Source: Flavicella sediminum (GTDB lineage: Bacteria; Bacteroidota; Bacteroidia; Flavobacteriales; Flavobacteriaceae). From it: 64,000 nucleotides of DNA. Made by a program: the position numbers and the translations under genes. This document shows positions 5,033 to 22,024 of the stretch, in pieces (positions within the stretch are counted from its first letter, which is position 1; each line of letters begins with the position of its first letter). The DNA lies in NCBI RefSeq assembly GCF_006381105.1, contig NZ_VDET01000018.1:1-64000 (forward strand). Reading direction: 5' to 3'. The notes under the pieces are model-generated. The model searched no databases. It worked only from the letters and a program-made list of their open reading frames with translations, and was not told where the DNA came from.

Positions 5033-5713
5033 ATGAAAATTTTAGTAACTAAAAAACTAAATACCGAACAACGAAATCTATTAACCGATTTCGAGCTGGA
5101 AGAGGTTTCTATGATTGATATTTCTTTTGGAGAAAACTTTAAAGTTGAAGAAAAGGTTGAAATCGCTGTTTTTACGAGTGCCAATAGTGTTCGTTCTGTC
5201 TTTTCAGTACATAAAAATAATATTGCTCATTTTGATACTATTTATTGTGTAGGGCAAAAAACAAAATACTTATTAGAAGAGATTGGTTTGCAGGTTGCCT
5301 TAGTAGCAAATAATGCCATGGAATTGGCAGATGCACTAGCAGATCGGTTTTCTAAAGATGAAAATTCGTTGAAAGAAATTAGTTGGTTTTGTGGAAATCT
5401 TAGAAATAATGATTTGCCCGAAATAATGGCAGAGAATGGTGTTTTGGTAACCGAATATTTGGTATACGAAACAAAATATGTTCCTGTAAAACTAGAGACT
5501 ATTTTTGATGCCATTTTATTTTTTAGTCCTTCTGGAGTTAGGAGTTATTTAAAAGAAAACAAATCAAATTCAAAACCTGTTATTTGCATTGGTGCTACTA
5601 CAGCCATTGAGGCAATTCAGAATTTTGACAATGTATATATAGCGGATGACACAAGTGTTGAGTCCGTTTTAGAAAAAGTAAAAGAAGTACTAAATTCTGA
5701 AGAAAATGAATAG
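5033..5713 (+). CDS. hemD: Uroporphyrinogen-III synthase
   Basis: Cyclises hydroxymethylbilane with inversion of ring D. The family is poorly conserved; support comes from the 226-aa length, [11 protein letters not shown] near residue 50, the late [11 protein letters not shown] segment with [11 protein letters not shown], and its place between hemC and hemB. Its last 8 bases overlap the start of hemB, which suggests translational coupling. Confidence 0.93.
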
Positions 5714-6671
5714 AACTAGACGTTTAAGAAAAACAGAAGGAATTAGAAGATTGGTTCAGGAAAACAAACTGACCATTGATGATTTGATATATCCTTTGTT
5801 TATTGAAGAAGGTGAAAATATTGAAAAAGAAATTGTTTCAATGCCGGGTATCAAACGTTTTTCTTTGGATAGAATTCATAAAGAATTAGATGAGGTGGTG
5901 GCCTTAAATCTACCTGCTGTTTTGTTATTCGGAATTCCTGCTGAAAAGGATGATGAAGGAACAGAGACATGGAATGATAATGGAATTATGCAACAAGCCA
6001 TTCGTTATATCAAAAAGAATTATCCAAGTTTGTATGTCATTACAGACGTGTGTTTTTGTGAATATACAAGTCATGGACATTGTGGGATTATTCATGAAAA
6101 TGATGTGGACAATGATGCTACTTTAGTGAATTTGGCAAAGCAAGTTATTTCTCATGCAAAAGCTGGGGTTGATATGGTAGCGCCATCAGGAATGATGGAT
6201 GGAACGATTGCTGCTATTAGAGAAGCCTTAGATAATACAGGTTTTGCAAATTTGCCTATTATGGGGTATTCTGTAAAATATGCCTCGGCATTTTACGGAC
6301 CGTTTAGAGATGCAGCAGATTCTGCCCCCACTTTTGGTGATCGAAGAACCTACCAAATGGATCCTGCTAATAGAGACGAAGGTTTGCGTGAAGCAACTTT
6401 TGATGATGAAGAAGGAGCCGATATTTTAATGGTGAAGCCAGCATTGTCTTATTTAGATATTATTCGCGATTTAAAGGATAAGTATGACAGACCAATTGCT
6501 TGTTACAATGTAAGTGGAGAATATGCCATGGTAAAGGCAGCAGCAGAAAAAGGTTGGATTGATGGAGAACGCGTGATGATGGAATCTTTATTGTCTATGA
6601 AAAGAGCAGGAGCAGATATTATCATTACCTATTTTGCTAAGGAAGTAGCTAAAGTGTTATTGAAACGTTGA
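5706..6671 (+). CDS. hemB: Delta-aminolevulinic acid dehydratase (porphobilinogen synthase)
   Basis: Condenses two 5-aminolevulinate molecules to porphobilinogen. Both Schiff-base lysines are visible: Lys191 in [12 protein letters not shown] and Lys244 in [10 protein letters not shown]. Cys116, Cys118 and Cys126 ([11 protein letters not shown]) form the site of the zinc-dependent class. Length 321 aa is usual. It overlaps hemD by 8 bp. The tight operon is interrupted directly downstream by a GIY-YIG cassette before hemL. Confidence 0.97.
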
Positions 6672-6749: not shown

Positions 6750-6774
6750 GTCATTCCTGCGAAGGCAGGAATCT
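6750..6774 (+). repeat. 25-bp repeat, left copy flanking the GIY-YIG gene
   Basis: This copy begins GTCATTCCTGCG and ends GGCAGGAATCT; its inner part is itself palindromic (ATTCCTGC and GCAGGAAT around GAAG or similar). The same 25-mer occurs in opposite orientation at 7074-7098 with one mismatch. Similar palindromes are, as I recall, common dispersed REP-like repeats in bacteria. Confidence 0.85.
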
Positions 6775-6781
6775 CAATAGT

Positions 6782-7072
6782 ATGAAACAGTTTTATGTTT
6801 ACATTTTAGCTAGTAAAAAAGAAGGTGTTTTATATATTGGTGTAACGAATGACTTAGAAAGAAGAGTTTTAGAGCATAAAACTAAAATAAATAAAGGATT
6901 TACTTCAAAATACAATATTGATAAATTAATGTATTTCGAGATTTTTAGTTCTATTGAAGCTGCTATTTTAAGAGAAAAGCAAATGAAAAAATGGAAACGA
7001 GAATGGAAGGTAAATCGGATTGTAGAAAATAATCCCAGTTGGGAAGATTTATCAAAAGAGTGGTTTAACTAA
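6782..7072 (+). CDS. GIY-YIG nuclease family protein (UPF0213-like), 96 aa
   Basis: A minimal GIY-YIG domain: FYVYILAS (the Y-VYIL form of the first motif), YIGVTNDLERRVLEHK (YIG strand with the catalytic Arg), GFTSKYNIDKLMYFE, and AILREKQMKKWKREWK with the metal-binding Glu. There is no extra DNA-binding domain. Proteins of this size resemble the UvrC and homing-endonuclease catalytic core but have no assigned role. The gene fills a 349-bp segment with a 25-bp repeat in inverted orientation at each end (6750-6774 and 7074-7098), lodged between hemB and hemL. The layout resembles a small mobile cassette rather than a heme gene. Confidence 0.9.
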   Translation: MKQFYVYILASKKEGVLYIGVTNDLERRVLEHKTKINKGFTSKYNIDKLMYFEIFSSIEAAILREKQMKKWKREWKVNRIVENNPSWEDLSKEWFN

Positions 7073-7073
7073 A

Positions 7074-7098
7074 AGATTCCTGCCTACGCAGGAATGAC
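7074..7098 (-). repeat. 25-bp repeat, right copy flanking the GIY-YIG gene
   Basis: Reverse complement of the copy at 6750-6774 apart from one central base (A to T). It begins 2 bp after the GIY-YIG stop codon and ends 13 bp before the likely hemL start. The ATG inside it (7094) is in frame with hemL and could be mistaken for its start. Confidence 0.85.
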
Positions 7099-7111: not shown

Positions 7112-8404
7112 ATGAAATTCAAACAGTCAGAAAAATTATACAAAAGAGGATTGACTAATTTAGTAGGTGCTGTAAATTCACCTGTGAGAGCGTTTGCTTC
7201 TGTAGGAGGTAATCCGTTGTTTATTGATAAAGCAAAGGGAAGTCAGATCAAAGATGTAGACGGAAATAAATATGTGGATTTGGTGCTTTCTTATGGACCA
7301 ATGATTTTGGGACATAGAAACAAGAGAGTTGAAAAAGCAATTTCTAAAGCCTTAAAAAAAGGCTATTCTTTTGGCGCTTCCTCTGTTGGAGAAATCAAGT
7401 TGGCGAAGATTGTTTGTGATGCTTTTCCAGGAATGGATAAAGTTCGTTTTGTAAGTTCAGGAACTGAAGCTGTAATTAGTGCTATTCGCTTGGCAAGAGC
7501 CCATACTGGTTTTAGTAAAATAATAAAATTTTCTGGATGTTACCACGGACATATGGATGCTATGTTGGTAGCGGCAGGTTCTGGTTTGGCGACTTTAAGT
7601 ATTCCAGGAAGTGCAGGTGTACCTGATGAAGCTGTTAAAAATACGTTGATTGCTGAGTATAATAATATCGAATCTGTAAAAAAACATTTAGAAGAAAATA
7701 GCGATGTAGCTGCTGTAATTTTAGAACCGGTTTCTGGAAATATGGGGGTTGTAAAACCTAGCGATGCTTTTATAAAAGAACTAAGAAAAATTACCAAAGA
7801 AAAAGGAGTTCTGCTTATTTGTGATGAGGTAATGACTGGTTTCCGATCTAAATTTGGAGGCGCTCAAGAGGTGTTAGGAATTGAAGCAGATATTACTTGT
7901 TTAGGAAAAGTAATTGGAGGAGGTTTTCCTGTTGGCGCTTATGGTGCTAGAAATGAAATCATGCAAAATGTATCTCCATTAGGAGCAATGTATCAAGCCG
8001 GAACTTTGTCAGGGAATCCTATTGCTATGGCAGCAGGTATAGCGACGTTAACGGAATTGAAGCGTCAAAATCCATATGATCAATTCAATGCTATTGCTGA
8101 AAAGATGGAAAACATCCTATTAAATGCAGCAAAGAAGCACAATGTGGATTTGGTAGTGAATCGTTTTGGTTCTATGATCAATCCATTTTTTACAAAAGAA
8201 AGTGTTTCTAATTTTGAAGAAGCACAAAAATCAGATACAGAAAAATTTGCAAAATTCTTTTGGGCAATGATTGAAAATGGAATTTTCTTACCACCGTCTC
8301 AATTTGAAGCTTGGTTTTTATCTTCAGCTTTATCAGATAAAGATTTGGAAAGATTTGAAAATGCTGTGGATAAGGCGATGGGAAAAGTAGCTCTTAGCCT
8401 TTAG
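7112..8404 (+). CDS. hemL: Glutamate-1-semialdehyde 2,1-aminomutase
   Basis: PLP enzyme that turns glutamate-1-semialdehyde into 5-aminolevulinate, the partner of HemA. Motifs: GCYHGH (142-147), DEVMTGFR (238-245) and the PLP-binding Lys266 in CLGKVIGGGFPVGAYG. The start is put at 7112 (430 aa, MKFKQSEKLYKRG), because the six residues encoded from the in-frame ATG at 7094 fall in the 25-bp repeat and spacer and look non-native. The last codons lie in a 9-bp repeat that recurs inverted after the next gene, so both ends of hemL border inserted-looking DNA. Confidence 0.96.
   Translation: MKFKQSEKLYKRGLTNLVGAVNSPVRAFASVGGNPLFIDKAKGSQIKDVDGNKYVDLVLSYGPMILGHRNKRVEKAISKALKKGYSFGASSVGEIKLAKIVCDAFPGMDKVRFVSSGTEAVISAIRLARAHTGFSKIIKFSGCYHGHMDAMLVAAGSGLATLSIPGSAGVPDEAVKNTLIAEYNNIESVKKHLEENSDVAAVILEPVSGNMGVVKPSDAFIKELRKITKEKGVLLICDEVMTGFRSKFGGAQEVLGIEADITCLGKVIGGGFPVGAYGARNEIMQNVSPLGAMYQAGTLSGNPIAMAAGIATLTELKRQNPYDQFNAIAEKMENILLNAAKKHNVDLVVNRFGSMINPFFTKESVSNFEEAQKSDTEKFAKFFWAMIENGIFLPPSQFEAWFLSSALSDKDLERFENAVDKAMGKVALSL
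8390..8398 (+). repeat. 9-bp inverted repeat, left arm (flanks the S23-type gene)
   Basis: GCTCTTAGC here and GCTAAGAGC at 8798-8806 are perfect reverse complements on either side of the four-helix-bundle gene. The left arm is inside the final hemL codons. Short enough that chance is possible. Confidence 0.4.
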
Positions 8405-8445: not shown

Positions 8446-8802
8446 ATGAGAAATTTTAGAAAATTAGATATTTGGAGGTCGGGAATTGAGCTAGTAAAAG
8501 CAATTTATGTTCTTGCTGAAAAATTACCAATCCAGGAAAAATATGGACTGAGAAGTCAAATTACTAGAGCGGCTGTTTCGATTCCTTCAAATATAGCCGA
8601 AGGTTCAAGTCGAAATAGTGAAATTGAATTTAAAAGATTTTTAGAAATAGCATTAGGTTCTCTTTTTGAATTAGAAACGCAAATCGTAATTATTGAAGAA
8701 CTAAAGCTGATTGATAAAGTGGAGGTAATGAAAATATTGGAAATGCTAGATAAAGAAGGTAGAATGATTAACGGATTAATAACGAAAATAAAAAATAGCT
8801 AA
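8446..8802 (+). CDS. Four-helix bundle protein (23S rRNA intervening-sequence / S23 type)
   Basis: 118 aa with the signature of the family: FRKLDIWRSGIELVKAIY, then KYGLRSQITRAAVSIPSNIAEGSSR and FLEIALGSLFELETQ. Such proteins were first noticed in intervening sequences of 23S rRNA genes but are widespread as free genes; they form pentameric four-helix bundles and have no clear function. Here it sits between hemL and hemE, with no likely metabolic link. The flanks are low-complexity (AGCTAA, GCCAAAAGC, ACTACCAAA) and contain a 9-bp inverted repeat, which suggests a late insertion into the heme operon. Confidence 0.92.
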   Translation: MRNFRKLDIWRSGIELVKAIYVLAEKLPIQEKYGLRSQITRAAVSIPSNIAEGSSRNSEIEFKRFLEIALGSLFELETQIVIIEELKLIDKVEVMKILEMLDKEGRMINGLITKIKNS

Positions 8803-21851: not shown

Positions 21852-21936
21852 TGAGGTTTTGCGAATAGATGATAAAATAATTAATCTTTAAGGAGAGTGT
21901 GAAATAATTAATTAAGAAAAAGGTTGGCGTGTCTAC

Positions 21937-22005
21937 TCGAGCGGAGTCGAGAGGTTTGTATTTATTGAAAATTATCAATAAAAATGAGGTCTCGACTCCG
22001 CTCGA
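21937..22005. repeat. REP-like long inverted repeat (hairpin)
   Basis: TCGAGCGGAGTCGAGA (21937-21952) and its exact reverse complement (21990-22005), each arm itself partly palindromic, enclose an AT-rich middle that also pairs (TTTATTGA and TCAATAAA). Its GC-rich arms stand out from the AT-rich background. I recall this core as a dispersed repeat in Bacteroidota genomes. It lies between the terminator of the cupredoxin-like gene and the 3' end of pyrF. Confidence 0.85.
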
Positions 22006-22024
22006 CCTGACATCTAAGGAAAAA

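Follow-up and report, generated by a model that had tools for sequence, protein, structure and literature searches.

Does a small nuclease gene that lies between two inverted copies of one palindrome, in the middle of a bacterial heme operon, act on those repeats or spread with them? An earlier note on a locus of Flavicella sediminum had suggested as much. Here we analyse this locus in the window, by which we mean the whole 64,000-nt stretch of DNA studied (NZ_VDET01000018.1), and compare it with related loci in other genomes. The locus consists of the following elements:

5706..6671, + strand: hemB, the neighbour upstream of the cassette
6750..6774, + strand: left REP, with a GTC tag, stem ATTCCTGC, loop GAAG and a CTC tail facing the gene
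6782..7072, + strand: GIY-YIG nuclease gene, encoding 96 aa
7074..7098, − strand: right REP, an inverted copy with loop GTAG, which holds an ATG (7094) in frame with hemL
7112..8404, + strand: hemL, with its homologous start at 7112; the listed ORF start at 7094 is REP-derived

The cassette spans 349 bp (6750–7098) and, as the earlier note described, is bounded by 25-nt inverted repeats that are complementary at 24 of 25 positions, leaving one mismatch. Each 25-mer contains a palindrome, and both copies are predicted to fold into hairpins in which an 8-bp stem carries a loop of 4 nt. The cassette separates hemB from hemL, which lie 444 nt apart in the window and 22–101 nt apart at empty sites, and the hemL reading frame remains intact after the insertion. 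The right repeat does supply hemL with a spurious in-frame ATG at 7094; because the hemL starts of relatives align with the ATG at 7112, the one at 7094 is an extra start made by the repeat. The window also contains a 23S rRNA-intervening-sequence-like gene (8446–8802, a PF05635 match in Pfam) between hem operon genes. By appearance, such genes also occur in the thi operon of the same genome (L008, 342–719) and of G001 and G003 (L194 and L195, upstream of thiD); these are small accessory genes located in the same operons as REP elements.

The junction between hemB and hemL, which the earlier note had proposed to compare in close relatives, proved informative. In five of five other genomes of the genus examined, hemB (84–94% identical to that of the window at the amino acid level) adjoins hemL without the cassette, and the cassette is likewise absent between the adjoining genes of G034 and G026; in G018, 618 nt of other sequence separates the two genes. 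These counts refer to the nine of 34 hemL loci in which hemB was found (the window, the seven cassette-free loci and G018), the remaining 25 having no hemB inside the locus and being uninformative. Judged by this sequence comparison, the cassette at hemB–hemL is lineage-specific. A target-site duplication, sought by eye, was not found; the junctions in relatives are too diverged to define one.

Searching the window for the 23-mer with up to three mismatches returned two places, both of them the cassette repeats, and 100 shuffles of the window contained no such repeat. The whole 4.58-Mb genome contains four copies at the same tolerance, and reversed-pattern controls gave none. The other two copies form an inverted pair of 72 bp (G000:C76:169646-169717) between a thiE-like gene and thiD. 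Of the other genomes of the genus, three gave a thiD match (G005, G001 and G003), and all three lack this dimer: thiE and thiD abut in G005, another small gene lies between them in G001 and G003, and the thi loci of the three held no match to the stem pattern; G002 and G004 gave no thiD match. With only four copies in its genome, the repeat has spread little here.

The 96-aa protein encoded at 6782–7072 matches PF01541 (GIY-YIG; E = 4.8e-17). Its Pfam matches are to GIY-YIG and T5orf172 alone, with none to an HUH tyrosine transposase. An alignment of 41 sequences has 12 invariant columns, which include residues Y7, Y18, R28, H32, E65 and N84, and a profile of the nuclease family matches the solved structures 1zg2 (E = 1.7e-8) and 1ywl (E = 6.6e-7). 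These UPF0213/GIY-YIG proteins resemble the window nuclease in being small, and we know of no repeat association for them. An NCBIfam search with the nuclease gave nothing above the cut-offs, a PADLOC search gave weak matches alone (best E = 0.0066), and the phage records searched contained no match. By protein search, at least 187 of 249 family genomes contain relatives of the nuclease. For further analysis most matches interrupted by in-frame stops were set aside, as were roughly 20 rows at the end of the list and a few more; the relatives sampled comprise 127 distinct genes, from which four shorter than 85 aa were excluded to give the 123 used for flank and tree counts. Tandem arrays of very short GIY-YIG genes were also seen, at L280 (G151:C34:6985-9766) and L015 (G005:C1:1658389-1659762), with units of about 363 and 387 bp, respectively; stretches of the G151 array are 88–92% alike, and in the units of the G005 array a palindrome precedes the gene.

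The earlier note had further proposed to look for repeats beside other GIY-YIG genes of this type. We counted a hairpin as a tagged repeat if its tag was [GT]TC and its stem had no more than one mismatch and was followed by a C (or if it matched the D-type motif), provided that it lay within 250 nt with its tail toward the gene. By this rule 79 of 123 family genes and 71 of 80 cross-phylum genes have a tagged repeat on one or both sides; the two sets overlap partly, so that the pooled enrichment test is not one of independent loci. Within the family set, repeats are located upstream of 60 genes and downstream of 65 (both sides, 46; neither, 44), and several of the 44 genes in the last group have the same stem with another tag. 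The cross-phylum set, made up of the best 80 named loci among the matches listed from many phyla, has repeats on both sides of 41 genes, on one side of 30 and on neither side of nine. Background windows satisfy the hairpin rule at a rate of 2.5–3% (12 of 479 for the family set and 9 of 294 for the cross-phylum set), and neighbouring ORFs used as a control have a tagged hairpin upstream in 5 of 109 cases and downstream in 9 of 102. Tagged repeats flank a relative in N. gonorrhoeae (51% identity) on both sides, at distances of 188 and 169 nt, and 3.3 kb of this locus contain 16 tagged hairpins; an Aeromonas relative has one tagged repeat, upstream, and no tagged repeat lies within 250 nt of the relatives in S. 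meliloti and Planktothrix. These four are the ones examined among 33 plasmid records with a match. Among 17 relatives on viral contigs, repeats flank ten on both sides, three on one side and four on neither. A comparison of left with right flanks that relied on identity only was tried and dropped: mis-paired flanks scored at least 14 in 32 of 381 cases, against 63 of 127 for true pairs. This test is weak: identical repeats turn up in different genomes, and the stems on the two sides often differ through compensating changes. We therefore used the tag–stem–loop rule instead.

Within the family, repeat class tracks the nuclease clades. A tree of the 123 proteins, built on a short alignment of 96 columns, resolves them poorly (55 of its 119 inner branches are open), and near-copies aid label clustering in it. 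On this tree nine repeat labels need 21 changes, against a mean of 68.8 for shuffled labels, with 0 of 200 shuffles as low; the nine include ‘none’ (44 genes) and three mixed labels, all of which enter the 21 changes. Eight changes are needed for the 76 genes assigned to one class only. Taken class by class (shuffled means in brackets), B needs 4 (28.7), A needs 5 (15.3), C, to which the rule assigned L080 in what looks like a misassignment, needs 5 (12.5), B9 needs 1 (5.9) and D, which clusters weakly (6 of 500 shuffles as low), needs 7 (8.8). Two clades combine a left and a right repeat with different stems, each combination being found again across several genera. The first of these unequal pairs has ACCCTGAA on the left and ATGCTGAA on the right, and the second has ATTTCCGC on the left and ATTCCCTC on the right. 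There are exceptions: L159, L143 and L152 carry the first pair, or a variant of it, reversed, and L151, L133 and L127 have equal stems. We consider it very probable that enzyme and repeat form a cognate pair.

A second such arrangement exists in the same genome, which has four GIY-YIG matches. The other small protein, L001 (contig C12), is encoded between inverted copies of a different palindrome that have diverged from each other (19/22), and further copies of this palindrome lie on both sides at a spacing of about 60 bp. The window genome has 24 copies of this repeat type, of which 12 belong to the array around L001; G005 has 25, and the remaining four genomes of the genus lack it. One pair is present in the window:

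21931..22011, no strand assigned: inverted pair of the second repeat type (GTCnnnTCGAGCGnAGTCGAGA), a gene-less dimer of the type that flanks L001

The loci of the two long GIY-YIG proteins were scanned for any tagged hairpin; that of L003 has one, on one strand, and that of L004 has none.

Copy numbers and gene-less copies of repeat A, the repeat of the window cassette, bear on whether the pair moves. Of 249 family genomes, 86 contain the tagged repeat-A pattern, and none contains the reversed control. All 17 genomes counted as carriers of repeat-A cassettes have 3–71 copies, against 30 of the 232 other genomes with at least three (Fisher p = 3e-14), and 14 of 17 still have at least three when the two copies of the cassette itself are subtracted (p = 2e-9); the 17 were chosen by label or tree place, which makes the comparison partly circular, as they were picked partly by their flanking repeat, and the species are related, so these tests are not independent. 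G009, with 25 repeat-A copies in its genome, carries decayed GIY-YIG copies with several stops (C11, C4 and C5) beside a stop-free one (C36). A search with exact stems over 56–86 bp found 27 gene-less dimers of two inverted repeat-A copies, 66–80 bp long, in 13 of 249 genomes (control, 0). Five of these 13 genomes are among the 17 repeat-A genomes and eight are outside them, and some dimers lie in genomes in which no such nuclease was placed. In 25 of 27 dimers one end reads ATCC and the other ATCT, whereas the two tails of repeat-A cassettes are equal in 7 of 8 cases in the family set and in 12 of 13 in the overlapping cross-phylum set; the dimers are thus not simply gene-less cassettes. Their spacers vary in sequence, a subset sharing a weak common motif.

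The borders of the unit can be seen in the genus of G045 (ten genomes). G259 contains two tandem cassettes of 392 bp each, measured from repeat to repeat, that are 97% identical, and the sequence outside them differs. The second of these cassettes aligns over positions 1242–1637 with the G045 cassette, which occupies query positions 1243–1633, so homology ends within 4 nt of the repeats. Among the matches listed, the flanking blocks are about 340 bp apart in G252 and 255 bp apart in G253, against 2.8 kb including the cassette in G045. At the site of the G259 cassettes, G257 shares the outer REPs of G259 around a different interior (more than 1 kb of other sequence; L294/L304 versus L295), and REPs may therefore bound exchangeable cargo. 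The G045 locus (L276, G045:C3) also contains dispersed repeats of about 136 and 66 bp (query 490–626 and 1022–1087), which have many copies in the ten genomes of that genus among the matches listed.

The repeats resemble a described class. CGTC-tagged REPs have a CGTC (or TGTC/CCTC) tag, an 8–9-bp stem starting with AT, a 4–5-nt loop and a tail that is mostly CCA; they are reported in five phyla, including Bacteroidetes, Neisseria dRS3 is equated with CGTC-1, and they are described as not associated with transposase genes and as ones that ‘apparently lack a dedicated transposase’ (Di Nocera et al. 2013, PMC3733652). The cassette shares with this class the tag (ACGTC on the left, TTGTC on the right), the 8-bp stem starting with AT (ATTCCTGC) with loops GAAG and GTAG, and the occurrence as dimers. 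It differs in its tails, which are CTC and CTT rather than CCA (CCA occurs at one end of the 72-bp dimer), in its tie to a GIY-YIG gene family and in lacking a high copy number; with four copies in the window genome against up to 71 in relatives, we regard the repeat as CGTC-like and of low copy number here. The end difference of our dimers is a tail base, whereas the statement of Di Nocera et al. on dimers concerns stems and loops (PMC3733652).

A second comparison is with RAYTs and REPtrons, in which an enzyme gene is bounded by REPs (PMC3733652). The cassette shares with RAYT/TnpA-REP, REPtrons and REPINs the REP-bounded enzyme gene, the cognate repeat families and the short gene-less dimers. 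RAYTs, however, are HUH tyrosine transposases paired with GTAG REPs, and here a GIY-YIG protein is paired with GTC-tagged REPs. The RAYT-like reading of the earlier note therefore holds for the layout of an enzyme gene bounded by REPs and not for the enzyme fold or the repeat tag, which makes it an analogy.

The enzyme itself recalls another system. Chenal, Veyrier and colleagues reportedly described, in Nat Commun in 2025, site-specific single-stranded nucleases (Ssn), small GIY-YIG proteins with a genome-wide repeat as their target. Ssn homologues are said each to have their own sequence, and the role described, in natural transformation of Neisseria, is reportedly an effect on transformation. 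The window nuclease, which is small, of the GIY-YIG type and coupled to a repeat of its own, presumably fits this family. A mobile unit bounded by REPs, with empty sites and with dimers that lack the gene, is not known to be part of that description.

The empty sites, the repeats flanking relatives and the tracking of clade by repeat class together support the earlier proposal that the nuclease acts on, or spreads with, its repeats. Beyond this pairing, presence and absence at homologous sites, the duplicated cassette, the dimers and the scattered distribution suggest that nuclease and repeats probably form a mobile unit. The cassette is most likely a minimal unit of this kind, comprising a small, Ssn-like GIY-YIG nuclease and two inverted cognate CGTC-type REP hairpins in a RAYT/REPIN-like layout. 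From the GIY-YIG family and the reported Ssn work, we infer that the nuclease itself may cut the hairpin in single-stranded DNA and so bring about the movement. It would recognize the REP hairpin in single-stranded DNA, either on the lagging strand or in DNA taken up or transferred, and cut at or near the hairpin; the REP-bounded segment, with or without the gene, would then be copied or joined elsewhere. Such movement would be like that of RAYT enzymes, which are thought to move GTAG REPs. To our knowledge, enzymes of the GIY-YIG class form no covalent tyrosine–DNA intermediate. More broadly, small GIY-YIG nucleases may be the missing mobilizers of CGTC-tagged REPs across bacteria, to which we give a probability of roughly 0.45: a nuclease with two cognate REPs would be an autonomous element of about 350–390 bp, the dimers would be non-autonomous elements with two distinct ends (ATCC and ATCT), and enzyme and hairpin would co-evolve.

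Two other explanations survive in part. The nuclease could be a host-serving, repeat-specific single-stranded DNA nuclease, as reported for Neisseria Ssn, with repeats that are target marks spread by other means and a flanking pair that serves the regulation or immunity of its own gene. The tracking of nuclease clade by repeat class fits such a role, as do the repeats on both sides of the N. gonorrhoeae relative and the hairpins crowded around it, and much of the data is compatible with it; lineage-specific presence, the duplicated cassette and the gene-less dimers favour a unit that moves. Taken as the whole explanation we think it unlikely, and it can hold together with the mobile-unit reading. 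Spread could instead resemble homing, with the nuclease cutting a gene-less REP or dimer that repair from a cassette copy then converts, and with new sites arising only by REP–REP recombination. GIY-YIG domains occur in homing endonucleases, and the outer REPs common to G257 and G259 around different interiors are as expected from such conversion. REP borders could also have arisen without transposition, by gene conversion or by tandem duplication through homologous recombination. Against homing-like spread, the unequal tails of the dimers contrast with the equal tails of repeat-A cassettes, and a scan of six of the seven empty hemB–hemL loci found no repeat-A stem, the seventh, G026, having just 34 nt between the genes. 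We regard homing-like spread as unlikely.

That the repeats are ordinary terminators or mRNA-stabilizing hairpins whose inverted placement is incidental would account for their predicted stability and their location between operon genes, but we reject this as a very remote prospect because they are enriched around the nuclease family relative to neighbouring ORFs and because their classes by sequence agree with the protein tree. Chance is rejected as next to impossible, as is descent of an old conserved locus from a common ancestor; the shuffles (0 of 100) and the empty sites in the other genomes of the genus contradict these readings.

The pairing of nuclease and repeat is itself probably known in principle, since in tag, stem and loop the repeats agree with CGTC REPs and the nuclease fits the Ssn family as reported. 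What our analysis adds, as far as the literature was searched, is the candidate identity of the nuclease as the missing partner of the CGTC REPs and the putative behaviour of the pair as a mobile unit. The 2013 paper left the spread of CGTC REPs open (PMC3733652), and a gene family located beside the repeats across phyla offers a concrete, testable candidate, resting on the match of repeat classes to protein clades and on the gene-less dimers. If true, small GIY-YIG nucleases would represent a second, independent solution to the task of RAYT enzymes.
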